Shown here piece by piece: positions 3,105 to 53,360 of a stretch of 64,000 nucleotides of DNA (positions are counted from its first letter, which is position 1; each line of letters begins with the position of its first letter). The position numbers were made by a program, and so were the translations under genes. This DNA is from Sycon ciliatum (Eukaryota > Porifera > Calcarea > Leucosolenida > Sycettidae): positions 2,930,550 through 2,994,549 of the forward strand of contig NC_088654.1 of the NCBI RefSeq assembly GCF_964019385.1. Reading direction: 5' to 3'. The notes beneath the pieces are model-generated. The model was not told the origin of the DNA. It saw nothing but the letters and a program-made list of their open reading frames with translations, and made no database searches.

Positions 3105-3304
3105 TAATAAGTATATTCTCGTCATTGGGGATTACTTTACCAAATGGCTAGAGATTATCCCATTACCTAACATTACTGCCCAAACTGTAGCCGTGGCCGT
3201 GGAGCGGATTTTTGTCCGTTTTGGAGCCCCTGCGAAAATCCATTCGGACCCAGGATCACAGTTTTGTTCACAGCTGTTTCTTGAATTGTGCACGCCGTTC
3301 GATG

Positions 3305-3307: not shown

Positions 3308-3347
<40 letters not shown>

Positions 3348-3712
3348 TTGAGGATTTCCCAAAGACGTAGTCTAAATTGAAGGGAGTTCCATTATAATGG
3401 GAGGCTGTAGGGTTGAGATAGCAGACAGTGGAGGGCTAATAATTCGTAATGAACAGCCTAGCAAGAGAAATACAATTATGCTGAATGTTCCAGAATGGTC
3501 CTTTAATCAATGATACCTATAGCCTCGGGATATGCCTTGAAATACGAAATGTACCGAAACAGAAACACAAAAATTAATAAGAATAAGCGCAACGCACAAA
3601 GAAGGAGGACAGAGGCATGTCAGTGAGGAGTGGCATTGTGTTTGGTGTCAGAGAAGTTCGTGCAAATGTGACTGTGAAACAGGGACTGCGAGGCTGTGGC
3701 TCTCAGGTCTGA
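3308..3712 (-). mobile_element. Short insertion with (AAT)n tail
   Basis: About 400 bp of unrelated sequence separates two adjoining integrase fragments (…LELCTPFD and KTRTTPYHPMCDG). It begins with (TTA) repeats at 3306-3345. On the minus strand this would be a 3' (AAT)n tail, the structure expected of a 5'-truncated LINE or SINE copy. No inverted repeats and no coding similarity are visible. Confidence 0.45.
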
Positions 3713-4435
3713 AAAGACTCGAACGACCCCATATCACCCCATGTGTGATGGCATGATTGAACGAGCCAACCGCACCATTCAGGTCATGCTCCGTGCTTTT
3801 ATTGATTCAGCTGATTGTGATTCTTGGGATGAACGGTTGCCTCTGGTTCAATTTGCCTAGAATACAATACGAGTGAACACAATTCCACTCGTTATACCCC
3901 ATTCTTTCTATTGTTCGGGAGGGAGGCCCGTCTGCCCCTATCAATGATCTGCCCAGCCCCAGATACCCTTCCCAGCTCCATCACCCACACATCCTATGCG
4001 GTGCGGTTGAGAGATCGACTGACCGCTGCCTATAGGTTAGTCGGGGAACATTTGGATGTTGGCCACCGTCGTGCTAAAACCAACTATGATCTCAAAGCAA
4101 ACGCCGATGCTTTGAAAGTAGGACAGTTTGTTTGGCTTTACCGACACCCCCATGCTGGCGACAGCTCTAAATTGTTCCGGTATTGGGATGGCTCGTGGCA
4201 AGTTTCTGTTGTTCACTTCCCCCTAGTCTATACCATTAAACGGCTTGGCGTCCATTCATACCGGCGGACCAATATCATGACCGTCCACAGGAAAACATTG
4301 AAGCGAATCTTTGGCCCTGTGAACCTCCCACCTGTGAACGCCCCGGGTAACCCCCCCCCCCCCCGCGCTCCCATCATGGCGGGAGTCACCATTCCCCGTC
4401 TGCCCTCTTTATTTACGCCCTTGTTTTGAGATCTT
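3713..4435 (+). pseudogene. Ty3/gypsy integrase core 3' part and GPY/F-like C-terminus
   Basis: Final pol segment. The first 145 bp read YHPMCDGMIERANRTIQVML, containing the catalytic Glu of the D,D-35-E triad (MIERANR). A frameshift near 3860 moves the frame to one that is open to 4429: YNTSEHNSTRYTPFFLLFGR, ARLPLSM, then KVGQFVWLYRHP and FRYWDGSWQVS, the GPY/F-type module with the usual VHRKTLKRIFG end. A C-run near 4350-4364 ends the conserved part. No separate envelope-like gene was seen before the tandem repeats that follow. Confidence 0.85.
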
Positions 4436-8902: not shown

Positions 8903-9526
8903 TGTTAGATATTGTATCTCAACTGAGGGAGTGTTAGATATTTGCATGCGTCTTCACACACGTCTCTGATTGGACAGCTGCACTTTCGATGCATTTCTAG
9001 TATTCATTGCTACTGTGTGTTACCGTCGGACAACATTACGATTTATTGTTACATGTACGTTCTACATGTATGTCAAGTCAACCCTCAGCCTGTGTTCCCA
9101 TTCGTTTTCTAGTTCTATACTTACTGCCATGACTTGTCCCGTTTATGGTTATACAGTCTTCTTCTTTTCCTGTCGTATTGCTTTCGTTTACCGGAGACTT
9201 CTACGGTATGTCTCTATTCGCCTCCACGATGTCCTTATCCTGACACTAGCATTTTCTGCGTCGCGTACGGCTGGTGGGAATATCTACCCCAGCCGTCGTG
9301 ATGTAGACGCTTCCTCATCATTACTACTTGAAGGACAGTCACGAGTTTGAGTATCTCTGATACTAATGATAATGATTCTTACTGAAGTATGAGGAGAATT
9401 GTTTCCGAGTGGAAAGACACTGAGTGTCTATGTGTAATAACTAAATGAGCTCAACGAAGAGCCATAAACGTCCGTTAGGATTCTACTACTACTAGTACGG
9501 GCAGAACCAGAGTAGGATCTCTAAAA
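8903..9526 (+). repeat. BEL/Pao 5' LTR
   Basis: 624 bp from TGTTAGATATTG to CTCTAAAA. It is almost identical to the 3' LTR, except for a 6-bp ACATGT insertion near 9065 and scattered substitutions. Its first 29 bp repeat the polypurine-tract region (GTATCTCAACTGAGGGAG) and are followed by a second LTR-like start TGTTAGATATTTGC at 8932. Confidence 0.9.
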
Positions 9527-9527
9527 T

Positions 9528-9544
9528 TGGTCCTTCGAGCCGGA
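9528..9544 (+). other. Primer-binding site, tRNA-Tyr type
   Basis: TGGTCCTTCGAGCCGGA starts one base after the 5' LTR. It is complementary to the 3' end of metazoan tRNA-Tyr (…TCCGGCTCGAAGGA plus CCA). Minus-strand cDNA synthesis would start here. Confidence 0.8.
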
Positions 9545-9548
9545 TTCA

Positions 9549-11924: not shown

Positions 11925-13529
11925 CAGCTCCTGAAGAAACTGCCACAGTCTCTCTTGACGCAGTACTACCGCCAGATGACAGAAAGAGGAGAAGCGGAGA
12001 CGGTATGCACTCTGCTGGCCTGGGCATTAAGAGAAGCGGACTACAGAACAACAGCACAGGAGACGCTCACTGGCATCACCACACGGCCTGAGGGGACCAG
12101 TACACGCAACAAACAGACCTACAGAGAACAGCCAACAGCAGCAGCATTAGCAGCCTTTACGTCCCCGGCAAGTGCCAGTTGCGTGTTCTGTGGACAGAGT
12201 CATGAGACTGCCAGGTGCTCTGTCGTTACAAACACAGAGAAGCGGAAGGACATAGTTAAGAGCAACGGAAGGTGCTTTCTGTGTCTGAAACCGAACCACA
12301 TAATCCGTCACTGTCAGTCGAAGTTGAAATGCGCCAAGTGCCAACGTCGACACCACACTACCCTGTGTGACTCAACATCTGACAGGCCATCACCTGTGAC
12401 ACCACCCACGTTGCGCTATGAAAAGAAGCCGGCCGCTAACAACCAGTCTAGGGCAGCATCGGCTCCAAGCAAGAAGGGACTGACCAATCCATCCGCCAGC
12501 AGCGTTACACTGTCGTCTGTCAGTGCTCTGACATCATCTAGCAAAGACAACAGTATGGTTTTGCTGCAGACCGCTAAAGCTATGGTTGCACCAGGCATAC
12601 CTGTCCGAGACACCGGGATCCCTGTGAGAGTGTTGTTCGACGGAGGGAGCCAGCGCTCATTCGTGACACGTGATGTGCAAAGGCGGCTGGACCTAAAGAC
12701 AGACAGGCAGGAAGGCTTGAATGTCAATGCCTTCGGTGATTGCTCTGTTGGGGACAGCGGTTTAAGAGACGTGGTGAATCGGACCGTACAGAGTACGGAG
12801 GGAGACCCCCTGCAGCTGGAGTGTATCGTGATTGAATCAATTTGCGCACCAGTCCAGAACCAGCACCCTGCACAAGCAGTCCAGTGCTGCGGTGCGCTAC
12901 AAGGCCTCACACTGGCAGACGACTGCGACGGCACAGCCACAATCGATCTATTGATTGGAGCCGACCAGTACTGGCAATTTATGATGGGCAAGACGATCAC
13001 GACGGCCTCTGGTCCGACAGCCATCCGTACGCGTCTTGGCTGGGTCTTGTCTGGTCCTGCATCAGGCCCAACAACTAGTACGACAGGTACATGCCTCGCT
13101 ACTGAGGTGCACAGCTTAACGACGACAGCGCAGGTCCTTGATCAGCAGCTTCAACAATCCTGGGAGCTGGAGTCTCTTGGGATACATCCAATAACGGAGA
13201 ATCAAGTCCGCCATGCAACGCTACCCGACAACTTCCGAATCAGCAATATCGAGGAAGTCAAGAGCCCGGAATTTGGTGATGTGAGAGATATACACTATGT
13301 GCCACATCAAGCCGTTGGTGGAGAAGATAGGACCACGACAAGAGTGCGTGTTGTGTACGATGCGTCATTCCGCTCAGGCAAGGGCCCGTCGATCAACGTC
13401 TGCCTCAACGCGGGACCCTATCTACTGGAGAAGCCCCATCTGCTTGAGAAGCCCCCCTGGTGGGGCGGGTTCTTTGAGAGAATGGTGAGATGCGTCAAGC
13501 GTTGTCTTAAGAAGATCATACACCTCTGA
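11925..13529 (+). pseudogene. BEL/Pao Gag zinc knuckles, protease, fused pol ends
   Basis: Same reading frame as the Gag frame, beyond a UAG. It holds the end of the Gag domain, then zinc knuckles CVFCGQSHETARC and CFLCLKPNHIIRHC (residues about 75-125 counted from 11955), CAKCQRRHHTTLC, and an aspartic protease with VRVLFDGGSQRSFVTRDV near residue 222; DGG/DSG is the active-site loop of Pao proteases. Conserved linker and RT start follow (YVPHQAVGG, RVVYDASFRSGKGPSINVCL). At about 13440 the sequence jumps to PPWWGGFFERMVRCVKRCLK, the C-terminal end of Pao integrase. A 10-bp direct repeat GAGAAGCCCC at the joint (13428-13437, 13446-13455) suggests deletion by slippage or recombination. Confidence 0.88.
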
Positions 13530-13593
13530 TTGCAATATCATAAGTATTCGTTGTTGAGCTACAATACATGCATTCGTTCAGCCTTATGTATCT

Positions 13594-13605
13594 CAACGGA
13601 GGGAG
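13594..13605 (+). other. Polypurine tract of the BEL/Pao element
   Basis: AACGGAGGGAG immediately precedes the 3' LTR start TGTCTGATATTG. A near-identical copy (TCAACGGAGGGAG) lies 29 bp further on, inside the LTR. Confidence 0.75.
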
Positions 13606-14222
13606 TGTCTGATATTGTATCTCAACGGAGGGAGTGTTAGATATTTGCATGCGTCTTCACACACGTCTCTGATTGGACAGCTGCACTTTCGATGCATTTC
13701 TAGTATTCATTGCTACTGTGTGTTACCGTCGGACAACATTACGATTTATTGTTACATGTACGTTCTATGTCAAGTCAACCCTCAGCCTGTGTTCCCATTC
13801 ATTTTCTAGTTCTATACTTACTGCCATGACTTGTCCCGTTTATGGTTATACAGTCTTCTTCTTTTCCTGTCGTATTGCTTTCGTTTACCGGAGACTTCTA
13901 CGGTATGTCTCTATTCGCCTCCACGATGTCCTTATCTTGACACTAGCATTTTCTGCGTCGTGTACGGCTGGTGGGAATATCTACCCCAGCCGTCGTGATG
14001 TAGACGCTTTCTCATCATTACTACTTGGAGGACAGTCACGAGTTTGAGTATCTCTGATACTAATGATAATGATTCTTACTGAAGTATGAGGAGAATTGTT
14101 TCCGAGTGGAAAGACACTGAGTGTCTATGTGTAATAACTAAATGAGCTCAACGAAGAGCCAAAACGTCCTTTAGGATTCTACTACTACTAGTACGGGCAG
14201 AACCAGAGTAGGATCTCTAAAA
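13606..14222 (+). repeat. BEL/Pao 3' LTR
   Basis: 617 bp, the partner of the 5' LTR, followed directly by the GGCGA target duplication. Open frames in it (such as MDSCTFDAFLVF…) are present in both LTR copies but are not known proteins. Confidence 0.9.
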
Positions 14223-26519: not shown

Positions 26520-27040
26520 TACCGCTTATTGACAAGCCGGTCGCGTGCGGCTCCGCGAGGTATATTATGGCACCGCAGGTCGCGCACCAGAGGGCCTTTC
26601 TGGAAGCCTTACTCGATCGAAACTGAGCGAAACTGAGCACCCTGGGATGCGAGCAGTTTTTAGTACTCCCTGGTCCAAAAGCTCACCACCAGGCCGTCTG
26701 TCGTCTGGATATGCACTGTTGTTCGTCATGGTCAGCAATCTCCTTCGTTCGACCTTTCGTTTTCCTGACCACGATGATGACAAGCAGCTCTCATGCTCAG
26801 GTTAGTGCTACTTGTATGTCTGGGCACACAACACATATGAGATGAACCCACTGACGTTATCGAACTGAAGAATGCAGCAATAGTTCCTCGGATTCTCTTG
26901 ATTTCGGAACAAATTTCCTTCACTTTCACCCTCTCAGTCTCTTCCCCATGCCCTCCATGCATGCACAACGGAGCTTTCATTTCAAATGTTGTTTTATACT
27001 TTGGCAGTGCCTCTGCTACACTTTCATATAGAGTGAGGTC
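26520..27040 (+). repeat. Inverted duplication, copy A (partner at 36.84-37.58 kb)
   Basis: Two adjoining blocks match 37391-37575 and 36838-37145 in reverse. On the minus strand a frame reads HGGHGEETERVKVKEICSEI then KRIRGTIAAFFSSITSV; the partner reads HGGHGKETERVKVKEICSEI, KRIRGTLAAFFSSITSV. Mostly conservative differences suggest an ancestral coding sequence, unidentified. A third copy of the first block is at 46180-46330. Confidence 0.7.
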
Positions 27041-27080
27041 CTGTAAATAGGATCCAACATTGTTGGTGGTGTGTGTGTGT

Positions 27081-27094
27081 GGGGGGGGGGGGGG
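27081..27094 (+). repeat. Poly-G run
   Basis: About 14 G after (GT)n. Similar long G runs are at 27510-27526 and 28171-28182; each is a likely sequencing trouble spot. Confidence 0.9.
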
Positions 27095-27739
27095 TATGTT
27101 TGCAGCCAGGATGTAGGAATGACACTTCTGCGCAGCATGTGGCAATAGTCAGAACTGGTCACTCTACAAATCCCATACTTGACAACCTTTGCAAACCTGA
27201 GATCGAATGACGTACCTAGGCACGAAAATGTATACAAATATAGGTCACAGTGAGGCATGGACCTTATGCACTTTTGGGTGCCTATTATCGCCCTCGATGT
27301 CGGGATGGTCGCGGCTAAATCGGGGTGGTTGTCAGGTATGAAATCCCAACCGAGAAAACCATTTCATTAAAAGATAAACTCGGCTGGAACGCCGTTTTTC
27401 TGGGAATAGAAAATTTGTTGTGCCACTTTCGGCTAGTCCTTTTAGCAAAAGTGATTCAGTGCCTCCGCAATGCTGTATGAGCGCCAGGATATAGCAACTT
27501 TCTGTATGCGGGGGGGGGGGGGGGGGTTATCGTCCGCAACATTGGTAGAGTTACGGTTACATTGTATATGTAGATACATGTGCATCAGGGATTCATAGCA
27601 CCTGGGGAGACGACATGAGACCAAAGTACCCAAGACGTTGTGAGTTTTGACCCCATATTGGGTGGTTCTACGCTTTCTGTGTTCTGTGCAGCTCACAGGC
27701 TTGCTCTGTTTAACCCAAACATCTAGATCAGCAATTCTA

Positions 27740-27978
27740 TAGACCTTATTCGATAACGTGATTTTTGGACTCGTCTCCAGGGATTTGTCGTAAGCTGGGG
27801 CACGCGTACGTGAAACAAGTGGCAAGAAAGGCCCAGTTCGTACAAGGGAGTAGTAAAATACCGATATTTGTCTGCTCCTAGGTTCCCACGACGAGTCCTC
27901 TTTGCACTGGGTCTCTTGCCACTCCCTGGTTCCCGGGACCTGGTTCACGTGATCGTGACGTTTATCGAATAAGGTCTA
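27740..27978. mobile_element. MITE with TAGACCTTATTCGATAA ends, TA duplication
   Basis: 239 bp with terminal inverted repeat TAGACCTTATTCGATAA / TTATCGAATAAGGTCTA and TA flanks (27738-27739, 27979-27980). Inside it at 27845 is GGGAGTAGTAAAATACC, the arm of the hAT-like micro-element family. Confidence 0.8.
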
Positions 27979-27980
27979 TA

Positions 27981-30172
27981 TGCGGGCATGCATAAATCAA
28001 CCCTTCCACAAGGACGGCTCAAACAGGCAGCCAAGGAGTGAAAATTTCGCTCCTGGGGCTAGGGGTGAAGCGAAGGCCTCAATTTGCCAAATGAGCCTTC
28101 TCCATCGAAACGAACGAAGGTGTCGAATAATTATTTTACCAGTTCGCAGTTCCTGTTTACGCGCACTCCGGGGGGGGGGGGGGCTACTATGCACTTGTAG
28201 TGACATTTACAGTAAGCCAAGTTGCACCTATGGAAGCCAGGTGAAACACGACTAGTTGACTGTACAGACTACAGTATACATGCACCTGTATACATGCACA
28301 TGTGTACGTGAAGATCAGTGCATGCATGCCTGCCGTAATCGTATGTTGACCTTCGTTCGAATTGAAAAGAGAGGGTCGTTTCGAAAAAGAAAAAAATCTC
28401 AATGGAAGTATGATGCTGCTGACAATTCAAGACTCACTGAAGTCGCCTTTCGGGAATGGATCATGCGCTCTGGGTTCATCCAATTGGATATGGACTCAAA
28501 TCATTGTTACACCATTCTTGTTTGGTTAGTTATTCTACATCCCATAGCATGTACAATCCACCTTGTGAATAATGTACCTCGGGTTTACAAAACAACTCGC
28601 AAATAACGACACAATCTTCAGATCTAGTGACCATTTGATTGCATACTTCCAACCTCACGAGTAACAACAATACACCAATAGCGACACTTTTCTCATTCAC
28701 AATCGAGGGTCAGTATTCCCCAGGTTGACTGCAATTGCCAATCAAACAGGAGGGGCGAAAGTCGACCACGGCTGAAAAGGCGTAAAGAAAATGTATGTCA
28801 TGAGCTAGATGGCAGAAGGAGGAAGTAGGTTTTCTGAGAAAGCAAGAAACAGAGGTGAACGAAGCACCAGGTCTGTCCATGCAGTGGATAGAATTATTGT
28901 ATTGAAAGACAGGCTCTATACGTCAGCTTGCTACTATTATACCTACATTTGCTTTCTGCCTTTTTCATGCAGGATTCTGAAAGCTGGAGCAGCTCTGGTT
29001 ACCTCGACCACTGAACTTACAACTAACTTCCAACCAAATTCAAGGCAGTATTATGATGAATCAAGCTCGCTTGCCATCATTTCATCATTGCAGAGTACAT
29101 CGACAAAATAGATTTGGTGCTGACTATGTATGATGTAGAGTGTGCTCTATGTATCTATACTACTGATTGGCCTACATTGTACTTATGTGGGCTGAGAGTA
29201 ATCGATTGTGCTGTATGGCAGTTTACTTGTATGTCATAGATGTTCACATTGCACACAGCTACTGAATTGCTTTCTGTTGCACTGGCCTACTGCGGCCCAC
29301 TGCAAATAGATTGTAGTGGCATGGGCCATGCCATCATTATAGTGGTATACCGGTACTACACCAACAGTTTCACTGGTGCACTGCACTTACTGGTAGATCT
29401 ACATCATGCACAGCCTTGTCACTGCCTTTCTCACTTCTTTTTATGAATTTACTGTACTGTACTGTACACATTTAGGCACAGCTCTTCCACAAAGAGTTAC
29501 TAGTATTTTCTTCTGCATACCTACTGTATACAGTGACCTGACTGGTAACATCTATGGCTGTGAAATCACAAATTTCTGGGTTGACAGCCTCGAACCTATA
29601 CGATTTGTTTCTAAGTACGTGCTATAAGAAGTATTCTATTAAAGTATTCTACTGTAGCTTGCAGGACATGGACTGAGTTTGGAACACCACTCTTCTGTGA
29701 TTTGGATGTCAAATTATGAAATTCACTGCTTGAGATAAACCGGTGCATGGCATTCACTGCTATAGTATGACTCGGGGTAAAGTGTTCCAACGCATACTCA
29801 TTATAGTGAATAGGTGTGCGTCAGTTGATCCGTGCCAAACGTTGTTGCTGCTGGATAACATATTCCGAGATAACTGAAGCTACACTGCCATCTAATGTTC
29901 AAACATGCATCGAAGGGGCCGTAACGAGATCTGCAAGGCATGATTCTATACCTGTATTCGATGCTCTCTAGCAGGCCATTCATCTGCCTCATTTTCTCTG
30001 TGCTGCATTGATGAGTGAAACAGCATGCTGTCCGCAGATTGGGTATTGTGTATAGACAGACGTGTATGTAGTGGTAAAGCTCAAATACATGTACAACATA
30101 ACAATCCCCGTGTTTTGCAATAGCACAAACCCAGCAACCGCAATTCTTATTTTTGGGCTGTGGTGTTCTTAG
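27981..30172. other. No gene recognised
   Basis: Low-copy-looking DNA with a G-run at 28171-28182 and a cluster of TGTATACATGCAC words near 28270-28330. A plus-strand frame at 28256-28606 (FVRIEKRGSFRKRKKSQWKY, VAFREWIMRSGFIQLD) has no recognised domain. No convincing splice sites or repeats were seen. Confidence 0.3.
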
Positions 30173-30174
30173 TA

Positions 30175-30359
30175 CAGTGGTCCCTCTATAATCCGGCACC
30201 ATTTGTGCCACGAAAATCTGCTGGATTAGGGAGGGTGCTGGATTAACAAATCTGATCTACTGCTGCAATGTGCATGAAGAGGACATTTGGCTACTGAAAA
30301 TTGCGCCGGTTTATCGAGGGTGCTGGATTATAAAGTGCCGGATTAGAGAGGGACGACTG
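30175..30359. mobile_element. pogo/Tigger-type MITE
   Basis: 185 bp with ends CAGTGGTCCCTCTATAATCC and GGATTAGAGAGGGACGACTG, flanked by TA. CAGTNGTCCCTC termini with TA duplication are characteristic of the pogo branch of Tc1/mariner. The CTGGATTA/TGCCGGATTA words repeat inside. Confidence 0.85.
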
Positions 30360-31157
30360 TATTCCAGGCTGGATGTTCTAGGCTTCAACGCTCTTGGGCG
30401 CACGACTTTACTGTGCCGAAGAATATTTTCAGCCAATGAACCCAGAGCTTGGGGGCAGATGAGTGCCATGGAACAGCCTTTTGCATGTGGCTTTCACTAC
30501 ATGCACATGTACAACTTTCAATTGATGCGGAAAATTCAGACGAGGACTTTTGCAGTTATGAGATAGGTCCCCACGAATGGTCATGTCACTTCACAGAATA
30601 CATGAACTAATAGAGTAGACCTCGATCCCCCCAGAGAACGCTTGGGTGAAGTCGGTTTCAACTGAGGACATGTCCAAAACCATGCTAAGTACTTGAGCTG
30701 CTCATGAACCCCACAATTTTCAGGCCCGCCGGAGCCGGTCTGGTTGGTCAGGTCATCACCGGACCAACTTGTTGGCCACCAACAAATGTTTCCTTCTGTG
30801 GAGGACGTGTGTACCCGCCATATCACACACAAAGTATAAAAGGCCATGACACTACCGGACCAATCAAAAACTGCTTCCGGCGGTACTGATTATACAGTAC
30901 AGGTTTAAAAAGCGGCTCCATTTTTGTCATACATCAAACCAACTCTGTCATTGCTATTCTACTCAAAAAGAGTAGTGATGTTTATTCACAAAAGAATCAC
31001 AATACTAGCAGAGAACTTCGATATTCTCCTATTTTAGGGGCACTGCAGTACTATGCAAAACTTAATGCTGCATGGTCATTGTTATGAAGCCGTCACCTCA
31101 GTACAGCAATTGAACAGGCTGATTATGTGAGCGAGATTCACGGCAAATCTTCTTCCA

Positions 31158-31378
31158 TCATTCAGTCTTGAGTGGTCCACTGAGGCAGGAAAACAACCTG
31201 TTCCGGCCTTCCATACGAGAAGCAGAAATTGAACATGCTCCAGGGTGGAGGTGGCGAGTATCGGCAATGTAATGCACCTTTAGGCAAACACGACCATCAT
31301 TCCGAAATGGATTCTCAAACACCTTCGCTCGTGAGAGTGCCTCAGAGTGGTATTCATCAACAGATGGCAAACCTGTAA
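31158..31378 (-). CDS. Possible terminal coding exon, unknown gene
   Basis: On the minus strand a good acceptor (CATGTATTTTACAG) precedes an open frame of about 73 codons, LPSVDEYHSEALSRAKVFEN, then PFRNDGRVCLKVHYIADTRH and ISASRMEGRNRLFSCLSGPL, ending in TGA. The frame is not low-complexity and stands in otherwise gene-free DNA. I do not recognise the family. Upstream exons were not found on the minus strand within a few kb. It could be a last exon or a chance frame in an old repeat. Confidence 0.3.
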
Positions 31379-32291
31379 AATACATGAAAATACATAGCAG
31401 CAACACAAAGAAACCTAATGTTATAGAAACAAATTCGAAAAACAAAGTCTACTGAACCAAGGTACAATTACACTCCAGGAGACAAGCAAAAGTGCATATA
31501 ATCCGAAGGTTGCGATGCCTGTATGTATTGTATGGATTTATGGATTCTCCACAGGCCTTAGGGGCCGTCCAAGGTTACCAATAGTATTTTCAAAACGAAA
31601 TGTTTTCGTTTGTGGGTGGTTGGGTTTGAAGGAGTTTCGTTTTGAAAATAATTATTGAATGCTGATGGAGAATGCCCAGTTACTTCTGGATGTCGAAAAT
31701 TGACATCAATCTTTTATTGAAATTCGTTTTAACCGATAGTTGAAAAGTGTAATCGTTTCACCCCTAATAATTGATACCATATCCAAGTCTGACTCTCACC
31801 GTGAGATCCTGGCAACAATAATACCTGGTACATGACATATTCAGACACTGACATAAGCATCTTTTTGGGAACAACACGTGTGCCTATCTGCTAGTGTAAT
31901 GTGACACACATGTAGAATCAGTCATAGGTAATGTTACCCCCTCACTGTTGTATGCGCAGACTCCACTTCGCGGTGTCAAGTACTCTTCTTTCGGTGGGCT
32001 ACTTCACTAAGGCGCCGGTCACACATGCAGGCGGCGACACCACTTTTGCGGCTGCCTCCAACACGCTGGCAGTGGGCGCTTTTGCGGCTCTTTTCTGCCG
32101 GCGGTCACACATGCAAAGGCTTTGGTACGCACGCAGCTTCACGGGTCTCCACAGGTGTCGTAAAAATTTTCTCTGAAAAAGACTGTAGCCTCAAAATTCT
32201 TCAGGAAGGTACCTGCTTTGTTGCATTTTGACTGAGTTGGCTGTTTCATTTTTAATTCCTATCACTGTTGTCTTTCCTTTCCTGCGCTGGT

Positions 32292-33656
32292 ATGGATCGC
32301 AGAAACGCCCAGAATCGCCGACTACGTCGTGACCAGCGACTGCGGAGAGCTATGGAGATTGCCTCAATATTCATGTTGTTCAATTTCTCTTCGTTTGAAT
32401 CTTGCGGAAGCTCCTTGAGCATCGGTGGACGCCTGAGTCGAGTCCCATGTCGGATGGTTGATGACACCCAGCCTGTATGGATGCAGATGATGGCACTGTT
32501 TGGTTTGCCGCACATGCGTGACCTTCTCTTCGGTAGATACAAGAGAAAACGACGCTTCTGGGCTGCTCTCAGAGATGGCAATGTATGGGATGAAGATTTT
32601 TTGAGAAATTATCCCACAATGTCCGTGCAATGGAATGTCCCCGACTTTGAAGATCAACAGTATATGGAGCATGTGCGAATGGGCAAATCAGAGTTCTGGC
32701 ATCTCCATGAGGAATTTGGCCGGTATATTACATTCCAGGACAGCAAGTGGAGGTTGTGTGTACCGAGCCACAAACGTCTGGCAATAACGCTGCATTGGCT
32801 TGCCAACGGCAATAGCTACTCGCAGCTAGCCCGTCAGCATGGCATTGCCAAGTCAACCGCTGTTAAGATAGTCCATGAAACTGTGCGTGCACTGAAGATG
32901 CACATGGTGCCGAATTCCATTCGCTTCCCAGAGGGACAAGAGCTGAAGAGAGTGATGGCAGAATTCGAGTCCCTATCATTCCTGGAAAGGTGTGCAGGAG
33001 CTGTGGATGGAACATTTGTTAAAATTCGAAAGCCAAAGGCCATGTTTGGTGACTGCTACTATTGTTACAAGAAGTACTGCTCAATTATTTTATTGGGCAC
33101 TGTAGATGCGTGCGGGATGTTCATCAACGTGAATGCCGGAAGGCCTGGGTCTGCTGGGGATGCCAGTGCGTATGCCACATCAACAATGTTACGCAGGATT
33201 TCCCAGCAAAAGTGGCTGACCATACAAGACAACTTTCGAATTGAAGGCACGTACATACGGCCCTACCTTGTGGGAGACTCTGCATTCCCCCTGTGTGCCA
33301 CTCTAATGAAGTGCTTTGATGACTCAGCTGGACTTCAGCCACATGAACGGACATTCAACTACCGGCTTATTCGGACAAGGCGTGTAGTGGAGCAGGCGTT
33401 TGGGCGACTCAAGGGTCGATTCCGTGTGCTAGTCCACAATAACCTCGACGATCCCGACTTCGCTGCTGATGTGGCCATTGTCTGTTGCGGTCTGCACAAC
33501 ATCTGCGAGAGATGGAAGTGTCCTATGGAACCGACTTGGCTAATTAACACTGCCACGTACAATCAGTTCCACGCAGGACCAAATGACCAACCCCACGATG
33601 ACTATGAACAAGCAGGTTGGACGGTGAGAAGGAAGCTAGCGCGGCGTACTCACTGA
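32292..33656 (+). CDS. PIF/Harbinger transposase (HARBI1-like, DDE_Tnp_4)
   Basis: 454 residues from the ATG at 32292 (MDRRNAQNRRLRRDQRLRRA); there is no earlier in-frame ATG before a stop. A helix-turn-helix region lies at about 155-200 (LAITLHWLANGNSYSQLARQ then GIAKSTAVKIVHE). The catalytic domain shows the first Asp in GAVDGTFVKIRKPK (about residue 239), the second in YLVGDSAFPL (about 328) and the Glu in RVVEQAFGRLKGRF (about 367), spaced as in HARBI1. Length and motifs match functional family members and there is no frameshift or stop. It would cut and paste the element in the nucleus, guided by the Myb-like partner encoded on the other strand. A 5' non-coding exon cannot be excluded. 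Confidence 0.93.
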   Translation: MDRRNAQNRRLRRDQRLRRAMEIASIFMLFNFSSFESCGSSLSIGGRLSRVPCRMVDDTQPVWMQMMALFGLPHMRDLLFGRYKRKRRFWAALRDGNVWDEDFLRNYPTMSVQWNVPDFEDQQYMEHVRMGKSEFWHLHEEFGRYITFQDSKWRLCVPSHKRLAITLHWLANGNSYSQLARQHGIAKSTAVKIVHETVRALKMHMVPNSIRFPEGQELKRVMAEFESLSFLERCAGAVDGTFVKIRKPKAMFGDCYYCYKKYCSIILLGTVDACGMFINVNAGRPGSAGDASAYATSTMLRRISQQKWLTIQDNFRIEGTYIRPYLVGDSAFPLCATLMKCFDDSAGLQPHERTFNYRLIRTRRVVEQAFGRLKGRFRVLVHNNLDDPDFAADVAIVCCGLHNICERWKCPMEPTWLINTATYNQFHAGPNDQPHDDYEQAGWTVRRKLARRTH

Positions 33657-33901
33657 GATCACCCTGTTGTTTGAGCAATACGGTTCTGCTGGCCTCTTAT
33701 TTCCACACTGAGTACAATCCATTCCATTGATGAATTTATACACCTGCTCTGTGTGAACGAGAAGCACTGAATGCAACTTTATTGTTTTGCCCGTGCAGAA
33801 GGCGTATAAGAAAAACCGCAGCGTGCTAAATTGCACCTAAAAAATAGAAGAGAAGAACACGGCTGAAAAAAATTGAAGAAAGGATTAATCACAAAACAAG
33901 C

Positions 33902-34102
33902 TCAGTCCTGCCCCTCGTTCCGGGAAGACCTTGGTCCGGGACCATTGAAGAGGTTGCTCACAAGTGTGGCCTGGAATGTCATCATGGACTGCTGGACAGT
34001 CATCTGGAATTCCTGATTTTGCCGTTGTGTGGCTGATGACGTTCTCTCCTCACGATCTCTCATCCGCTCTTCAAATTGTTGCTGCTGTTGTTGTAGCTGT
34101 GC
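33902..34102 (-). CDS. Likely last exon of the Harbinger Myb-like gene
   Basis: On the minus strand an acceptor (TTTGACCGCAG) precedes an open frame AQLQQQQQQFEERMRDREER, then SATQRQNQEFQMTVQQSMMT and NLFNGPGPRSSRNEGQD, ending in TGA. The Gln/Glu-rich helical sequence is what often ends Harbinger Myb/SANT proteins. The donor in the preceding exon is not clear, so joining to the 34.3-35.35 kb frame is an inference. Confidence 0.5.
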   Translation of the reverse strand, partial: AQLQQQQQQFEERMRDREERTSSATQRQNQEFQMTVQQSMMTFQATLVSNLFNGPGPRSSRNEGQD

Positions 34103-34279
34103 CTGCGGTCAAAGCACACAAATAACCATCGCAAGAGGACTAAGTATTGCTGCTAGACTGCTAGTGATGTTTCATTGGCCAAGTTGTTTGCGAATTCTCA
34201 CTAATTCCAATTCTGTAAAGTAGATACCACAATTATGAACGAGTGGCCAATACAAATCTATAATATACTACAGTAGAAT

Positions 34280-35353
34280 TCAAATTTTAAGGAACATGGC
34301 CAACAATCTCCTGTCTATTTCAGACCATATTCTATTTTGGAAAAGGCAGTTTTGGAAACAGTTGCTTCCCTGAAGTGTAATGGTTTGTTGTGTATGCGCT
34401 TGCATGATGTTGCCAAATGATGCCAAGAACTGGTCCTGTTGCTGGCGCTGTTGCTCTGGTGCTGCCGTCCTACTTCTGCCAACACGACTCGGTGGTGTGG
34501 GAGGCAAGGCAGGCCCAGCACGGCCATTGTGCGGCTCCTGTTGAGTTTGAGCTTGCGCCTGTGCTCGTGGCCTTGCTGTTGCCTGCGTCGGTAGAGGCAG
34601 TGGGGTAGATGCTGCTGCAGGCAATGCTGCTGATGGTACGACTGGCTGCGCTGAAAGTGCTGCTGCAGGCAATGCTGCAGATGGGAGGACAGGCTGTGCT
34701 GAAAGTGCTGCAGCACGTGCTGGTGGAAGTCCATCAGAACTATCGGCCTCGCTGTCATCAGCCACGTCATGGTATAAATAATCATCTATGTCACCATCAC
34801 CAAAAGTTCCACTGTTTCCAGTAGTGTGTGCAGTACTGCTATCACTGCTTGTACTAGCTCTGTTGCTCGTAGCACTGAGGTTGGCTGCCTCTGCTGAAGC
34901 TGCCTGTTCAGCATCATCAGCATTGTTGTCATCATCATCATCCTCACTGGTGTCTTGGGCACTATCAGTGGAAATAGCCAGTCCCAGAGTGGGATGAGAC
35001 TTCCACAGATCATAGAAATATTTGAGTAGTGGCCACTTCGCTTCTTTGAGAATCTCTTCCCAGTCCAGCTCATCTTCATCATCATCATCATCAGCAGCTG
35101 CCCCGGTTCGCTCTAGCCTACTTCTGCGCACTCTGGGCTGCACATGAAGTTTAACCTTTTTGGAGCCCGTCTTCTTCAGGCGCCCGATCTTATCCTTGAC
35201 CTGCTTCCAGGCGACCACCACATCCTCCTCCTTCAGCTTGTCAACAATCCATTTGTACCTCTGTACATCTCTTGTCATTTTTTTCTGGTGTCTTGTCTTG
35301 ACCTCGAAATAGAGGGAGAGGAGCAGTTGCTCTTGGTCAGCAGTCCACTTCAT
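34280..35353 (-). CDS. Harbinger Myb/SANT-like DNA-binding protein, main exon
   Basis: The frame starts MKWTADQEQLLLSLYFEVKT at 35353. Residues 1-75 form a trihelix/SANT-like domain (W3 and RYKWIVDKLKEE, AWKQVKDKIGRLKK), the DNA- or transposase-binding partner that PIF/Harbinger elements encode beside their transposase and that helps import it into the nucleus. An acidic linker (DDDDDEDELDWEEILKEAKW), Ser/Thr-rich and Ala/Pro/Gln-rich repeats (AALPAAALSAQPVVPSAALP) follow. The frame continues upstream without stop into the terminal inverted repeat, but the ATG at 35353 matches family starts. The 3' end probably splices to the exon at 33.9-34.1 kb, so the last 15 codons here may be intronic. 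Confidence 0.8.
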   Translation of the reverse strand: MKWTADQEQLLLSLYFEVKTRHQKKMTRDVQRYKWIVDKLKEEDVVVAWKQVKDKIGRLKKTGSKKVKLHVQPRVRRSRLERTGAAADDDDDEDELDWEEILKEAKWPLLKYFYDLWKSHPTLGLAISTDSAQDTSEDDDDDNNADDAEQAASAEAANLSATSNRASTSSDSSTAHTTGNSGTFGDGDIDDYLYHDVADDSEADSSDGLPPARAAALSAQPVLPSAALPAAALSAQPVVPSAALPAAASTPLPLPTQATARPRAQAQAQTQQEPHNGRAGPALPPTPPSRVGRSRTAAPEQQRQQQDQFLASFGNIMQAHTQQTITLQGSNCFQNCLFQNRIWSEIDRRLLAMFLKI

Positions 35354-35805
35354 GACGAGAGATGAAAAACTAATTTTTCCAAGATCCAAGAGATCCAACA
35401 ACGACAACGCCGCAAAAGTTGCACTACCGCTTTTGTGTTTCGCCACCAATTTTTTGGTTGTGGCGCTTTTGAGATTGCCGCCGTGGCGCCAGTGGCGCCA
35501 GGCGCAGTATCCATGGTGATCCGGGGATATCCCAACTTTTGTGGTGCAGCTTTTGTGGTGTCGCAAAAGCGCCATGCATGTGTGACCGGGGCCTTAGGCG
35601 CTTGTCTAAAAGGACTCACATTCATCCTGCAAACCTACACGACTTGCATAGTTTTCACTGTCGCCAAAGTGCGTGCATTGCACACATTGAGATTCACTCC
35701 CTCCGTACAGGCCAGTACAGAGCTGCCCACCAATTGAGTCTGTTTTGCGTACTCAGACTTCTGATTTTCCGTATCTTGCGGTGTTTGGCGTACTGCCGTG
35801 TACGT

Positions 35806-36098
35806 TGCATCAAGAGTACATAACCCCCCAGAGTGTGCAACGCCTGATCCAGCTCTGCATAGGGTCTTGGTCGAGCGGAATCGGATCTTTGCGTCATAAT
35901 ACCGTACACATCCGAGGGGAACCCGGGAAGTCGCGGGTACTCTTGGATCAAAAACAATGGTGCCCTGCCTCGAGACCGGCCTTGCGCTGGTGTGAAGTGT
36001 ACGCATGACATCAGAAGATCCGATTCCGCTCGACCAAGACCCTACACAGAGCTGGATCGGCGTTGCACACTCTGGGGGGTTATGTACTCTTGATTGCA
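35806..36098. mobile_element. MITE with 83-bp inverted ends
   Basis: 293 bp; left end TGCATCAAGAGTACATAACC through GTCGAGCGGAATCGGATCT, right end its complement with few differences (one extra A). Central 125 bp unpaired. No coding capacity; duplication not resolved. Confidence 0.75.
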
Positions 36099-36837
36099 TG
36101 CATACTTGCACTAAAAAGTTTTTTGACACACACATGCATGTCCGTGGCTGCATTTGGTAGTGTAAAACATGTGTGACTTGCACTCACGACATTCATTTTG
36201 TGCTACATGTACATGTTGTCGTGGTACCGCATGCACTCACTTTGGTACAAGACTATTCATGACTCAGCTTACACTTGCAATGCTTCTACACAGCTGATTG
36301 ATCCTCTTCGATTTTCTGTACCATTTGCCCAAATTCTGTAGTGCGAACAAGGAGAGATTTTCCCGACAAATACAGAAAAATATTTTCAGTTTTTTTCAGT
36401 CATTTTCACGACATATTTTCTTTATCATGATCCCTGGGTGTGGCGTTCTTACGAATGCGGAAACGCAGTCTTTCTAACCGAGTCTCACGTGCACTGTGAA
36501 TTTTATTTTTTATTTTATTCACAATGCCATGTACGGATTCATCGCTTCTTCGCACCTGAGATCCTGTGCACGTGCAACAGCGATTTAAAGATTAGCTTTA
36601 TCAAAATTACTAGTGATCAGAGAGAGAGAGAGAGAATCAGTTGTGGCTGCTGTGACAGCATAGAGTGTATATTGGTGTAAACATCATTGCCCAGCAGAAC
36701 CGTATTCATAATCATAGGGACCCGCGTTTAGCATTACATTTAGGAAGCTATTTTTTAGAATTTTTACAGGCCCAATAAGCCTGAAGAGAAGAACACCTAA
36801 CTTAGACTGTCCTAACGTTATCGAACGCACTGCCAAA

Positions 36838-37580
36838 GTAAAAACAACATTTGAAATGCAAGCTCCATTGTGCCTGCATGGAGGGCATGGGAAAGAGACT
36901 GAGAGGGTGAAAGTGAAGGAAATTTGTTCCGAAATCAAGAGAATCCGAGGAACCCTTGCTGCATTCTTCAGTTCGATAACGTCAGTGAGTGCATCTCATA
37001 TGTGTTGTGTGCCCAGACATACAAGTAGCACTAACCTGAGCATGAGAGCTGCTTGTCATCATCGTGGTCAGGAAAGCGAAAGGACGAACGAAGAAGATTG
37101 CTGACCATTACGAACAACAGTGCATATCCAGACGACAGACGGCTTGCCAGAATCAGTCTGGTGCATCTTCAGGAATCTTCTTTCCTAATCGCATTCAGCA
37201 GTCAGGTTCGAGGTCAAGAGCACGATGATATTTTCAGAAGGAATAATTTTGAAAAATGTTAAAATGTTGGAGAAGAAGCTTCCTCTCTAAAAATTAGCGT
37301 TCCCTGCTTTCCCGCAAGGTGCCTTGCCGGACATGTCGTCGACAGCACAGTGTCGGCAGATCCACGTTTGTAGGCTGCAGACCCGGCAGACGTTTTGATC
37401 AGCCCGGCCTGGTGGTGAGATTTTGGACCAGGGAGTACTAAAAACTGCTCGCATCCCAGGGTGCCCAGTTTCGCTCTATCCGATCGAGTAAGGCTTCCAG
37501 AAAGGCCCTCAGGTGCGCGGCCTGCAGTGCCATAATATACCTCGCTCCACAGGACAGTGCTACGAGGTACCAGCCAGGCT
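36838..37580 (-). repeat. Inverted duplication, copy B
   Basis: Reverse copy of 26520-27040 but with 250 bp (about 37146-37395) not present in copy A, joined at GGC on both sides. The minus-strand frame 37438-37731 (MAGGSSLGAPASASILFRRE, HVFYIEELSKNEVSPAELKQ, AFLEALLDRIERN) extends beyond the duplicated block; the protein is unrecognised. Confidence 0.65.
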
Positions 37581-40918: not shown

Positions 40919-41397
40919 GTGTATACAGTCAATAAAGTTGAAGACACCACTGCAGCTGTACTTATGGTTGACAAAAATGGTGGTAAAGACACACCTGCCA
41001 GGTGTGTCTTTACCACCATTTTTGTCAACCATAAGTACAGCTGCAGTGGTGTCTTCAACTTTATTCTCCCGAGTCAAGCTCCGTATGAAGACATCCAAGA
41101 AGAAGATTGCCTGATGAGTCCAGCGGGGACGAAACGTACGTCGCAATCGAGCTATGTCGTTGCTGTGTCATCATCTAGGTGCCATGCGCTACTTGATGTA
41201 CCAGCCTGCTATGCCGGATACCGCCAGCCATGCATCGACCAGGCGCTAGGCGCGAACTGATGGTGGTGGTGGTGAGAAGGAGAACTCTGTGCCAGAACGT
41301 TGCAGCCTAGAGAGCGTGTGTGGGCAGGCGTGTGTTTACCGCCATATTGCCAGGTGTGTCTTTACCACCATTTTTGTCAACCATGTGTATACAGTCA
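40919..41397 (+). mobile_element. Retrozyme-like unit (352 bp) with inverted junction
   Basis: GCCAGGTGTGTCTTTACCAC…GTCAACCAT occurs at 40997-41032 and again at 41349-41384, a 352-bp period, and GTGTATACAGTCA occurs at 40919 and 41385. The left edge is an inverted partial copy: 40932-40996 is the perfect reverse complement of 40998-41063. A type I hammerhead ribozyme lies inside. Sizes of 170-600 bp with tandem or inverted partial copies and a hammerhead fit metazoan retrozymes and Penelope-like terminal repeats. Confidence 0.65.
41105..41148 (+). ncRNA. Hammerhead ribozyme, type I
   Basis: All core elements are present in order. Stem I 5' strand GATTGC (41105-41110); CTGATGA (41111-41117); stem II GTCC/GGAC closing a 5-nt loop (41118-41130); GAAA (41131-41134); minimal stem III C-GUAC-G; cleavage triplet GUC (41140-41142); stem I 3' strand GCAATC (41143-41148), fully complementary to the 5' strand. 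Predicted cut after C41142. The short stem III is typical of animal type I hammerheads, which tend to act as dimers. Confidence 0.88.
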
Positions 41398-42646: not shown

Positions 42647-42806
42647 CTCATTATCCACTCATTATCCACATGCTCATTATCCACATGTCCTTTTCTCTCC
42701 CCTTATTTTTATTTATCGCCGTGGTTGGCAATCACCCACTCTCCTAACATTGGCCGGTGTTTCCACTGCGTCTTGAGATGTTGTAATAAATAAATAAATA
42801 AATAAA

Positions 42807-43419
42807 TTTATTAATGCGATTAATAGTATAAGTGAAGCGGACATTACAAAATGATGAATGAGAATACATGTATCTTAAATGGTTGTTCCTAATCGATTTT
42901 CTTGAGACTATCATCAGGGAAAATCGTCTCACAATAGAGGCTATACGGAGAAACAAACTACTTATAGGTTAATGGATAGTGGGAAGTATACAAGGTGAGG
43001 TGTGAAAAAAAACTAAAGTGGGAGAGTAGACGAAAGAAATTAGAAGAAAATATGTGAGAGTGTTCTGACGGTGTGAGCTACTACAAAAGGTGAGTGAAAT
43101 GAAGGCGTGGAAGCAGGTGAATGTGATAGAGTCTACCTTTTGTAGTAGCTCACACCGTCAGAACACTCTCACATCTTTTCTTCTAATTTCTTTCGTCTTC
43201 TCTCCCACTTTAGTTTTTTTTCACACCTCACCTTGTATACTTCCCACTATCCATTAACCTATAAGTAGTTTGTTTCTCCGTATAGCCTCTATTGTGAGAC
43301 GATTTTCCCTGATGATAGTCTCAAGAAAATCGATTAGGAACAACCATTTTAGATACATGTATTCTCATTCATCATTTTGTAATGTCCGCTTCACTTATAC
43401 TATTAATCGCATTAATAAA
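42807..43419. repeat. Near-perfect 285-bp inverted repeat (foldback), 43-bp loop
   Basis: Left arm 42807-43091 and right arm 43135-43419 are reverse complements with only a few differences. (TAAA)n lies directly left, and the right arm continues into CGTCGCCTTTTAAATAAATA, so the right arm looks like the 3' end of a retroelement with a TAAA tail and the left arm like an inverted second copy. CCCTGATGATAGTCTCAAGA in the right arm resembles, but does not satisfy, a hammerhead core. Confidence 0.9.
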
Positions 43420-43926
43420 GTTATTGTCCCCTCGTCGCCTTTTAAATAAATAAATAAAAATAAATTGCATGTTTGTTGAAAAAATGTAGCCATATTTGTA
43501 CTGTGGCATCCTGGTGGTGTATTTCGTAACTGCACTGCATGACACTATTATTTTATGAGAAATGGCAGCGATTGTGAACAATGTACAATCAACAGTATTG
43601 GCAAAAATGATGCAGAGCTGTATGGAACTTTGGTACAATGTGCCTGTATATTGGTATTTGAACACAATGCATGAAGCAGAAGAGCATAATAATGTTGACT
43701 TGTCAATTTATAGTTAAGACGTGAATATGAAACTCATGACCAATGCCAATAGTCCAATGATGAAGGGTCTGCGCAATGCTGAAGGGCCCAGTCTGCGCAA
43801 TTACATTGTGTGTGACATTGTATACAAACACTCCCTGTGGCATAATCATGTACTCCGTGCAAATACATGCTTGAGCGGTGATATTTGTTACTGTACATTG
43901 TAAAAATCGTGGTGTCATGCTCCTTG

Positions 43927-51046: not shown

Positions 51047-51107
<61 letters not shown>
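51045..51107 (+). repeat. (AAT)n microsatellite
   Basis: About 20 units, directly left of the 591-bp array. A short (AAT)4 also lies directly right of it (53342-53353). Confidence 0.9.
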
Positions 51108-51108
<1 letters not shown>

Positions 51109-51646
51109 TTGAAACTCGGATGTTGAGCCATAAATAAATGTAGAAGAGAAAAGGACATATCGATACGAGTTAAGAGTAACTCTCCATCACTGTAACATGA
51201 TACTATATACAGTCAGAAAGTGCAATAACTAGGCACAAAACTGACAGAGTACTGAAACATTCGACGTCCTGACACCTAGCCTCAACACATCTCCGTAGCG
51301 CTAACCGACAGCCTTCCAACTTGGAAGGTTCAAGGTTATGGAAAGACCAAAGAGGGGAAGGCAAGCGCAACGAAAATGAGCAAAAGCTACAGTCCCAACG
51401 GAACAAAGAATGTCGATTGTTACTGGACGATGAAGAGACCAGTACGATATTTGACAAAGCGGTCTAACTACAATTCGAAGCAGCAAAGCAGCACACCACC
51501 CAACTTGGGTGGGTCATAAATATCAAAGATAAATGAAGAAAGGGAAGCTTTGCGAAAACGAATTGTACAAGCCGAAAGCCAAACTCCTACAGTACTCCTC
51601 ATGCATGACATTGTGATGGACTAGTTGACTACAAAACAAGTTGTTT

Positions 51647-51695
51647 CACACGACGTACGTTTCGCCGTATGGTTCGTGACGGCTCATCAGGTGTG
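51647..51695 (-). ncRNA. Hammerhead ribozyme, type I (minus-strand copy)
   Basis: Reverse-strand copy of the ribozyme at 52195-52243, with the same stem I CACAC/GTGTG, CTGATGA, stem II, GAAA and GTC. It belongs to the outer minus-strand unit. The inner minus-strand unit lacks it because the inversion point removes that part. Confidence 0.88.
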
Positions 51696-52194
51696 CAATT
51701 TGAAACTCGGATGTTGAGCCATAAATAAATGTAGAAGAGAAAAGGACATATCGATACGAGTTAAGAGTAACTCTCCATCACTGTAACATGATACTATATA
51801 CAGTCAGAAAGTGCAATAACTAGGCACAAAACTGACAGAGTACTGAAACATTCGACGTCCTGACACCTAGCCTCAACACATCTCCGTAGCGCTAACCGAC
51901 AGCCTTCCAACTTGGAAGGTTCAAGGTTATGGAAAGACCAAAGAGGGGAAGGCAAGCGCAACGAAAATGAGCAAAAGCTACAGTCCCAACGGAACAAAGA
52001 ATGTCGATTGTTACTGGACGATGAAGAGACCAGTACGATATTTGACAAAGCGGTCTAACTACAATTCGAAGCAGCAAAGCAGCACACCACCCAACTTGGG
52101 TGGGTCATAAATATCAAAGATAAATGAAGAAAGGGAAGCTTTGCGAAAACGAATTCTACATTTATTTATGGCTCAACATCCGAGTTTCAAATTG

Positions 52195-52243
52195 CACACC
52201 TGATGAGCCGTCACGAACCATACGGCGAAACGTACGTCGTGTG
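52195..52243 (+). ncRNA. Hammerhead ribozyme, type I
   Basis: Stem I CACAC (52195-52199) pairs with GTGTG (52239-52243); CTGATGA 52200-52206; stem II GCCGT/ACGGC with 10-nt loop (52207-52226); GAAA 52227-52230; minimal stem III C-GUAC-G; cleavage triplet GTC ending at 52238. Predicted cut after C52238. Every conserved core base is present. Confidence 0.9.
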
Positions 52244-52785
52244 AAACAACTTGTTTTGTAGTCAACTAGTCCATCACAATGTCATGCATGAGGAGTACTG
52301 TAGGAGTTTGGCTTTCGGCTTGTACAATTCGTTTTCGCAAAGCTTCCCTTTCTTCATTTATCTTTGATATTTATGACCCACCCAAGTTGGGTGGTGTGCT
52401 GCTTTGCTGCTTCGAATTGTAGTTAGACCGCTTTGTCAAATATCGTACTGGTCTCTTCATCGTCCAGTAACAATCGACATTCTTTGTTCCGTTGGGACTG
52501 TAGCTTTTGCTCATTTTCGTTGCGCTTGCCTTCCCCTCTTTGGTCTTTCCATAACCTTGAACCTTCCAAGTTGGAAGGCTGTCGGTTAGCGCTACGGAGA
52601 TGTGTTGAGGCTAGGTGTCAGGACGTCGAATGTTTCAGTACTCTGTCAGTTTTGTGCCTAGTTATTGCACTTTCTGACTGTATATAGTATCATGTTACAG
52701 TGATGGAGAGTTACTCTTAACTCGTATCGATATGTCCTTTTCTCTTCTACATTTATTTATGGCTCAACATCCGAGTTTCAAATTG

Positions 52786-52834
52786 CACACCTGATGAGCC
52801 GTCACGAACCATACGGCGAAACGTACGTCGTGTG
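52786..52834 (+). ncRNA. Hammerhead ribozyme, type I (second plus copy)
   Basis: Exactly 591 bp downstream of the previous one and identical to it. Cleavage at both sites would release a 591-nt RNA (52239-52829). Confidence 0.9.
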
Positions 52835-53360
52835 AAACAACTTGTTTTGTAGTCAACTAGTCCATCACAATGTCATGCATGAGGAGTACTGTAGGAGTTT
52901 GGCTTTCGGCTTGTACAATTCGTTTTCGCAAAGCTTCCCTTTCTTCATTTATCTTTGATATTTATGACCCACCCAAGTTGGGTGGTGTGCTGCTTTGCTG
53001 CTTCGAATTGTAGTTAGACCGCTTTGTCAAATATCGTACTGGTCTCTTCATCGTCCAGTAACAATCGACATTCTTTGTTCCGTTGGGACTGTAGCTTTTG
53101 CTCATTTTCGTTGCGCTTGCCTTCCCCTCTTTGGTCTTTCCATAACCTTGAACCTTCCAAGTTGGAAGGCTGTCGGTTAGCGCTACGGAGATGTGTTGAG
53201 GCTAGGTGTCAGGACGTCGAATGTTTCAGTACTCTGTCAGTTTTGTGCCTAGTTATTGCACTTTCTGACTGTATATAGTATCATGTTACAGTGATGGAGA
53301 GTTACTCTTAACTCGTATCGATATGTCCTTTTCTCTTCTACAATAATAATAATGTAAGCC

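Follow-up and report, generated by a model that had tools for sequence, protein, structure and literature searches.

Which enzyme moves the retrozymes of animals, and which RNA does it copy? Both questions are raised by a locus of the calcareous sponge Sycon ciliatum, in a 64,000-nt stretch of contig NC_088654.1 (hereafter the window), where a 591-nt unit bearing a hammerhead ribozyme is repeated on both strands. Penelope-like elements (PLEs) have been proposed as the movers of animal retrozymes on the grounds of coexistence and shared ribozymes (PMC7229834), and the available part of a review states that no motif revealing the partner of a retrozyme has been found (PMC7761336). As read from the sequence, the inverted layout of the array, recorded in the initial annotation but not recognized there as such, constitutes a regular footprint of insertion from two fixed start sites. 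This footprint is common to a second retrozyme family and to PLEs of the same genome.

Architecture of the 591-nt array

The array (51106–53342) lies within an AAT microsatellite and consists of a head-to-head repeat of the 591-nt unit, a minus arm followed by a plus arm. Direct repeats with a period of 591 were recovered on both strands, along with long inverted arms that are 99–100% alike, and the tandem and inverted array of a 591-bp unit reported in the initial annotation is thus real. Its count of two copies per strand is close enough for the plus arm (52154–53342, plus strand; 1,189 nt, 2.01 units) and slightly overstated for the minus arm (51106–52155, minus strand; 1,050 nt, 1.78 units). 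Outside the joint, the copies in 51106–53342 show zero mismatches.

Unit positions are numbered from the predicted ribozyme cleavage site (u1 = 52239). The minus arm, followed from 52155 to 51106, runs from unit position 88 to position 546 of the next unit, and its outer (3′) end is termed site B. The plus arm, followed from 52154 to 53342, runs from unit position 507 to 513, and its outer (3′) end is termed site A. The inner limit of the minus arm was set by alignment at a single mismatch (52156), and the TT at 52154–52155 is common to both arms. In the internal plus unit, A (52751) and B (52784) bound a segment (52751–52784, plus strand) that is the 33-nt counterpart of the Penelope ‘tail’. 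The insertion target is represented by an AAT microsatellite on the left (51047–51108), which overlaps the arm end by homology, and by a remnant of it on the right (53343–53353) that adjoins the plus arm. Since this copy sits in a microsatellite, the length of its own target duplication is masked.

The element is non-coding, with no stop-to-stop open reading frame of 100 or more amino acids within 51106–53342. The unit combines a GC content of 0.433 with highly self-paired RNA, as in metazoan retrozymes, which are characterized by a GC content below 50% and extensive self-pairing. It folds better than its shuffled versions both as a linear molecule (z −4.56) and as a circle (z −5.2 for the plus and −4.6 for the minus sequence, 30 shuffles each). 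The predicted circular fold sequesters the ribozyme core by pairing it to a GGCTCA stretch upstream: the free fold has −176.9 kcal/mol, compared with −169.2 kcal/mol when ribozyme stems I and II are enforced, a cost of 7.7 kcal/mol with tertiary terms excluded.

Hammerhead ribozymes of the 591-nt family

Three type I hammerheads are present in the array, at the positions given by the initial annotation. One is on the minus strand (51647–51695, predicted cleavage after GUC; Rfam RF00163 match 51646–51696) and two are on the plus strand (52195–52243, predicted cleavage after C52238, match 52194–52244; and 52786–52834, predicted cleavage after C52829, match 52785–52835). The hammerhead at 52195–52243 has a stem I of CACAC/GTGTG, a stem II of 5 bp with a 10-nt loop and a stem III of 2 bp with a GTAC loop. 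Each of the three scored 26.8 bits (E 0.0018 in a 4.5-kb search), and a search of the whole window against Rfam listed only the two plus-strand hammerheads of this family (E 0.025). In the covariance-model check proposed at the outset, the score is therefore formally below threshold (the Rfam gathering score is 34), yet the hammerhead core pattern occurs four times in the window and not once in 100 shuffles of it. From our reading of the alignment, the shortfall is probably due to the long loop II (10 nt).

A type I hammerhead recurs once per tandem unit throughout the family. In 36 of the 38 genomic loci fetched for this family (see below) we counted 103 pattern-intact ribozymes, 99 of them identical (2 duplicate loci omitted), a count without a clean denominator, since flanked regions numbered 99 under a separate pattern. 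Variants are not clearly rarer in the ribozyme, with 9 in its 49 bp compared with 0.22 per bp elsewhere in the unit across the fetched loci. Two patterns searched against IMG/VR contigs returned no relatives of the ribozyme core, and blastn of the 591-nt unit against phage records returned no match.

Dispersed copies and their targets

The genome search that the initial annotation had called for, carried out on the 538-Mb assembly (313 contigs), found further copies: at least 176 matches to the 591-nt unit in the best 39 of 970 first-look places. The sample analysed here comprises 38 of the best-scoring places, which were fetched, together with the window; such a choice biases it towards young copies, and all counts for retrozymes and PLEs rest on this one genome. 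Different loci diverge by about 1.2% on average among these best-scoring loci, which points to young copies. The earlier suggestion of recent activity was drawn from the near identity of copies in the array. It finds some support in this divergence between loci, and has a weaker footing in identity inside one insertion, which is also expected from the copying of one RNA and calls for caution.

AAT-type microsatellites are the commonest target of the family (24 of 33 insertions), although they account for only 147 of the window's 64,000 bases, with 62 of the 147 at the 591-nt array itself. The second family, with a 352-nt unit, lies in them in 2 of 10 cases. The AT-rich, ATT-like targets that form part of a PLE-type footprint are thus found here. 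Taking both families together, 14 of the 17 insertions outside microsatellites are flanked by target duplications of 12–14 bp, and the remaining three have a 9-bp match only; in a control with mismatched flank pairs, 4 of 272 reached 12 bp. Dispersed copies with duplications longer than 4 bp are likewise a property of metazoan retrozymes. The initial classification as a candidate retrozyme is upheld by these 12–14-bp duplications at dispersed copies, together with tandem type I hammerheads and the lack of an open reading frame of 100 or more amino acids, and the sequence evidence supports assignment of the window array to the metazoan type. An assembly artefact, raised at the outset as a possible refutation, is disfavoured because many arrays of differing layout carry target duplications.

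Two fixed start sites, one at each end

The outer ends of the arms fall into two bands, A (u485–525, around u513) and B (u530–552, around u546). Adjacent minus/plus pairs number 39 across the 38 loci and the window, and 37 of them have one end in A and the other in B. A/A or B/B pairs do not occur (0 of 39), and the two pairs in neither class are at L038, where the plus arm is interrupted and, on resuming, extends to u516, and at L045. When two segmental duplicates and two pairs cut at the edge of the fetched stretch are left out, all 33 distinct pairs with both ends in view (66 arms) are A/B. At the commonest ends A and B are 33 nt apart, an offset within the 30–40 nt of the tail that separates the head-to-head ends of PLE-type insertions, and the left-hand end may be either A or B. 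Where a plus arm is followed by a minus arm, target DNA lies between the two in 10 of 10 cases, and such neighbours are therefore separate insertions. Single-armed copies also occur (at least L013, L015, L028 and L047).

Arm lengths, unit number and inner joints vary among distinct insertions, and the outer ends are constant. This bears on the possibility that the hammerheads lie by chance in a DNA transposon or MITE whose terminal repeats are inverted, or that recombination has rearranged a tandem satellite. Inverted ends, target duplications and the shortness of the arrays would all suit such an origin. An element copied as DNA would, however, keep its interior, and no constant interior is seen between the inverted ends of the 591-nt family; nor would unequal exchange in a satellite yield duplications of 12–14 bp. 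We consider either origin scarcely credible.

One source sequence for both arms

Across the 26 pairs with comparable arms, the two arms of the same insertion differ at 16 of 11,175 positions (0.14%). Mismatched arms differ by a mean of 1.12% over 650 combinations, and none of 2,000 permutations gave a value as low as that observed. Many of the insertions are members of a single subfamily, whose arms would match regardless, but about a dozen are unlike all others examined and their arms still match. These comparisons show, at the level of sequence, that a single sequence is the source of both arms of an insertion.

The arms extend up to 4,789 nt, or about eight turns of the unit, and cross the ribozyme cut site on every turn; it is the shortness of the retrozyme unit that makes several turns visible. 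A linear monomer as template was considered and rejected, as the inner ends do not coincide with the ribozyme cut site (1 of 66 within 11 nt, compared with 2.6 expected). A single RNA sequence thus serves for extension from the two sides of the break, and its own cut site is read through many times, for which a circular template fits best. Of the 46 arms that reach at least 480 nt, 16 end at u486–552 (5.2 expected, p 2.6e-5, for a band chosen post hoc), as if the reverse transcriptase (RT) had halted, after a full turn, where a primer sits. A second pile-up of inner ends at u271–300 (9 of 66) is not predicted by the model and constitutes an unexplained stop region for the RT. Short overlaps at many inner joints suggest joining by microhomology.

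Twin priming, in which a second primer lands within the RNA and yields an inverted 5′ part, is known for L1. Brought about here by a LINE-type RT on linear multimeric RNA, it would account for the head-to-head arms, the 12–14-bp duplications and the microhomology at inner joints, and LINE fragments, as judged by eye, are present in the window. Its second site is free, whereas the start sites here are fixed and paired in every distinct insertion (33/33), and arms of at least 480 nt finish near A or B more often than expected. Both arms can also be longer than one unit, as at L011 (4,533 and 4,017 nt), such that twin priming would need a very long uncut RNA despite a ribozyme in each unit. On balance we regard it as improbable.

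Self-priming, in which the cDNA folds back on itself to make the inverted arm, likewise predicts identical sequence in the two arms, and the 352-nt-unit copy in the window, a palindrome whose arms both begin at the same unit position, has the form that it would produce. In the 591-nt family, paired arms show no relation in the position of their inner ends (within 15 nt of each other in 2 of 33 pairs, compared with 1.7 expected), which is evidence against fold-back. Nor does self-priming account for the combination of an A end with a B end, and we judge it very unlikely. A start at both sites on one circular RNA is the reading that we carry forward.

A second retrozyme family with this footprint

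The window holds a second retrozyme insertion, with a 352-nt unit (40932–41384, plus strand), that the initial annotation had missed together with its type I hammerhead (41105–41148, plus strand; 35.4 bits, over the gathering score). No similarity was found between the 352- and 591-nt units except for 14 nt around the ribozyme core. The insertion is again head-to-head, with a minus arm at about 40931–40998 and a plus arm at about 40996–41384, and is flanked by a 13-bp target duplication, GTGTATACAGTCA (left copy 40919–40931, right copy 41385–41397, both on the plus strand). Its ends are 32–33 nt apart. The Rfam matches to mir-3119 at 40957–41039 on both strands, which are below the gathering score, reflect this palindrome and are no microRNA.

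Searching the genome with the 352-nt unit gave at least 216 matches in the best 40 of 1,272 first-look places. In nine loci including the window, 8 of 10 pairs have ends at u238–250 and u270–285, and the two remaining pairs (L077 and L078) have one odd end each. Raw distances between the ends range from 27 to 47 in the other copies because target duplications overlap the ends. The 352-nt unit lacks the low GC content and self-pairing of the 591-nt unit (GC 0.528, circular z +1.2).

A third hammerhead family (L049–L069), made of tandem 226/228-nt units, has an end at u45–50 of its own numbering, just past the ribozyme, in 17 of 20 matched loci. The two-site rule is absent from it, the sole head-to-head case (L067) having both ends at one site, and to judge by these ends the family apparently inserts by another mode.

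Several other features were recorded in the window. A near-perfect palindromic element at 42801–43425 (arms of 291 nt, 99% alike, with a 43-nt spacer) adjoins an AAAT repeat; it is head-to-head as in retrozymes and has no recognized ribozyme. Close by, at 42678–42719, the 3′ region of a LINE-like fragment gives a weak 42-nt match (78.6%) to the A-site region of the 591-nt unit (u487–525). A BEL/Pao-like retrotransposon (8903–14065), with reading frames containing DUF1759 and DUF1758, is bounded by direct repeats (8903–9368 and 13606–14065) that are 98% alike. The region 26690–37146 has a PIF/Harbinger-like arrangement, with a DDE_Tnp_4-type transposase (32268–33656) and a Myb-like frame (34280–35575) inside 306-nt inverted repeats (26690–26995 and 36841–37146) of 96% identity.

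The same footprint in resident PLEs

A search of the genome for GIY-YIG domains gave 13 matches, and two of these places, L079 and L080, were fetched. Their open stop-to-stop frames span 807 and 749 codons, respectively, and in both the GIY-YIG domain scores above the cut-off. The RT match in L080 is below it (26.9 bits, cut-off 29.6); relatives bear RT and GIY-YIG together. Both elements (L079 at 945–4213) are EN+ PLEs and both are head-to-head. The plus arm of L079 terminates at TTCTCTTCGAGTT, whereas its minus arm continues for a further 33 nt, to CTACTTCGT; the flanks form a 13-bp duplication with one mismatch. All four head-to-head PLE loci read at both ends have the minus arm at B and the plus arm at A; besides L079, two of them have 13-bp duplications and the third lies in an ATT microsatellite. 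L080 has the same B end as the others, and its opposite end is beyond the fetched stretch. Four further head-to-head copies, on contig C12 at 6308763, 8746934, 9076557 and 9524790 (L087–L094), all have the same flanks and therefore look like copies of one composite; both arms reach at least B and then run into common sequence, which masks the ends. The initial annotation had also pointed to PLEs as elements of similar style.

In L079 and L080, the sequence upstream of A includes a minimal hammerhead-like core, CTGATGATGGCAATTTGCCGAAAC, which Rfam does not report. The sequence TTCTCTTC is found at A of the 591-nt unit and at A in all four PLE ends read (including L084 and L086), and AGCTGCAG is common to the PLE tail and the A–B segment of the 352-nt unit. 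The number of shared 8-mers at the start sites is near chance (3 and 3, compared with an estimated 3.3 and 1.9 expected). The motif CTTCNAC occurs once in the 591-nt unit, at A, and once in the 352-nt unit, at B, and the Anolis PLE template has a similar motif at its start site. We do not take it as a start-site signal: it was picked post hoc, and the Sycon PLE has CTTCGAG at A.

A model for retrozyme insertion

The insertions display two fixed start sites, the pairing of these sites, one source sequence, target duplications, and the recurrence of the footprint in the 352-nt family and in PLEs. The retrozymes carry a PLE footprint, and their mobilization by a PLE enzyme is accordingly the simplest reading. 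Work on a purified PLE protein from Anolis (Poseidon; Frangieh 2024, PMC11167929) provides a point of reference: in the available part of that study the protein, a predicted dimer with a preference for ATT, both cuts and extends the two DNA strands, and begins reverse transcription at two adjacent internal RNA sites that match a 30–40-bp genomic ‘tail’. The insertion scars described here carry the signature left by the purified enzyme, namely two start sites about 33 nt apart, and show that the same RNA served as template for priming by the two strands of a break.

We therefore think it likely that one circular retrozyme RNA is the template on which a PLE enzyme extends the two ends of the cut DNA. 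Several observations weigh against this reading: the 226/228-nt family with its single end site, the one-armed copies, the odd ends at L077 and L078, the C12 composite, the three insertions with a 9-bp match, the weak conservation of the ribozyme and the pile-up of inner ends at u271–300. According to this model, tandem copies would be transcribed, the hammerheads would cut the RNA to 591-nt units and each unit would be closed into a circle. A resident PLE RT/GIY-YIG enzyme, acting in trans and perhaps as a dimer, would cut AT-rich DNA, often an AAT microsatellite, with a stagger of about 13 bp. Both target 3′ ends would then prime on the same circle, one at A and one at B, 33 nt apart, and each RT would travel round it over differing lengths, at most about eight turns, before the two inner cDNA ends are joined by end joining. 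If this is true, two RTs run on the same circle in the same direction.

In more general terms, we lean towards the view that animal retrozymes are passengers of PLE enzymes: the circle would be gripped at two sites and primed by both ends of the break in a two-headed rolling-circle insertion, and the inverted copies of Penelope elements would likewise arise from priming by both strands at two sites and not from self-priming. In Adineta vaga, Penelope elements carry a terminal copy in inverted orientation, optionally a 31-bp tail, and duplications of 8–10 bp, and their inverted copies have been ascribed to self-priming on an antisense template (PMC3846280, in the part available). If the two-site reading is right, it explains the frequent inverted terminal copy of Penelope elements. 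With A, B, the resident PLE with the 807-codon frame and the type of target now named, the step is testable in vitro.

Comparison with known systems

In the available part of PMC7229834, the non-LTR retrozymes of metazoans likewise have a type I hammerhead in each tandem unit, are non-coding and dispersed, and, as in Sycon, have target duplications longer than 4 bp and coexist with PLEs. The 591-nt unit exceeds the reported range of about 170–400 nt, which is a description and not a definition, and the 352-nt family fits within it. Head-to-head insertion from two fixed start sites is a feature of Sycon that the same part of that source does not mention for metazoan retrozymes. Within the titles and abstracts searched, a set that excludes preprints and is thin in subscription journals, neither such insertion of retrozymes nor retrozymes in Sycon are reported. 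The pairing away of the ribozyme core in the predicted 591-nt circle is described there for plant retrozymes and viroids, but not for most animal ones (PMC7229834).

The LTR retrozymes of plants are also non-coding, with hammerheads and a proposed circular RNA stage, but differ in having LTRs, a primer binding site and 4-bp duplications (PMC4918200, in the part available), compared with 12–14 bp in the Sycon retrozymes. Their ribozymes are of type III (PMC7229834), whereas those of the 591-nt family are of type I by Rfam, and the family thus lacks the combination of type III hammerhead and 4-bp duplication of the plant elements.

GIY-YIG PLEs, from the available parts of PMC3846280 and PMC11167929, share with the Sycon retrozymes head-to-head terminal copies, an optional tail at one end, short duplications, AT-rich targets and a type I hammerhead. 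The 591-nt element has no long reading frame and is not an autonomous PLE with RT and GIY-YIG in one frame. Where PLEs encode an RT and an endonuclease, it encodes neither, and each of its arms instead holds a short unit repeated over several turns.
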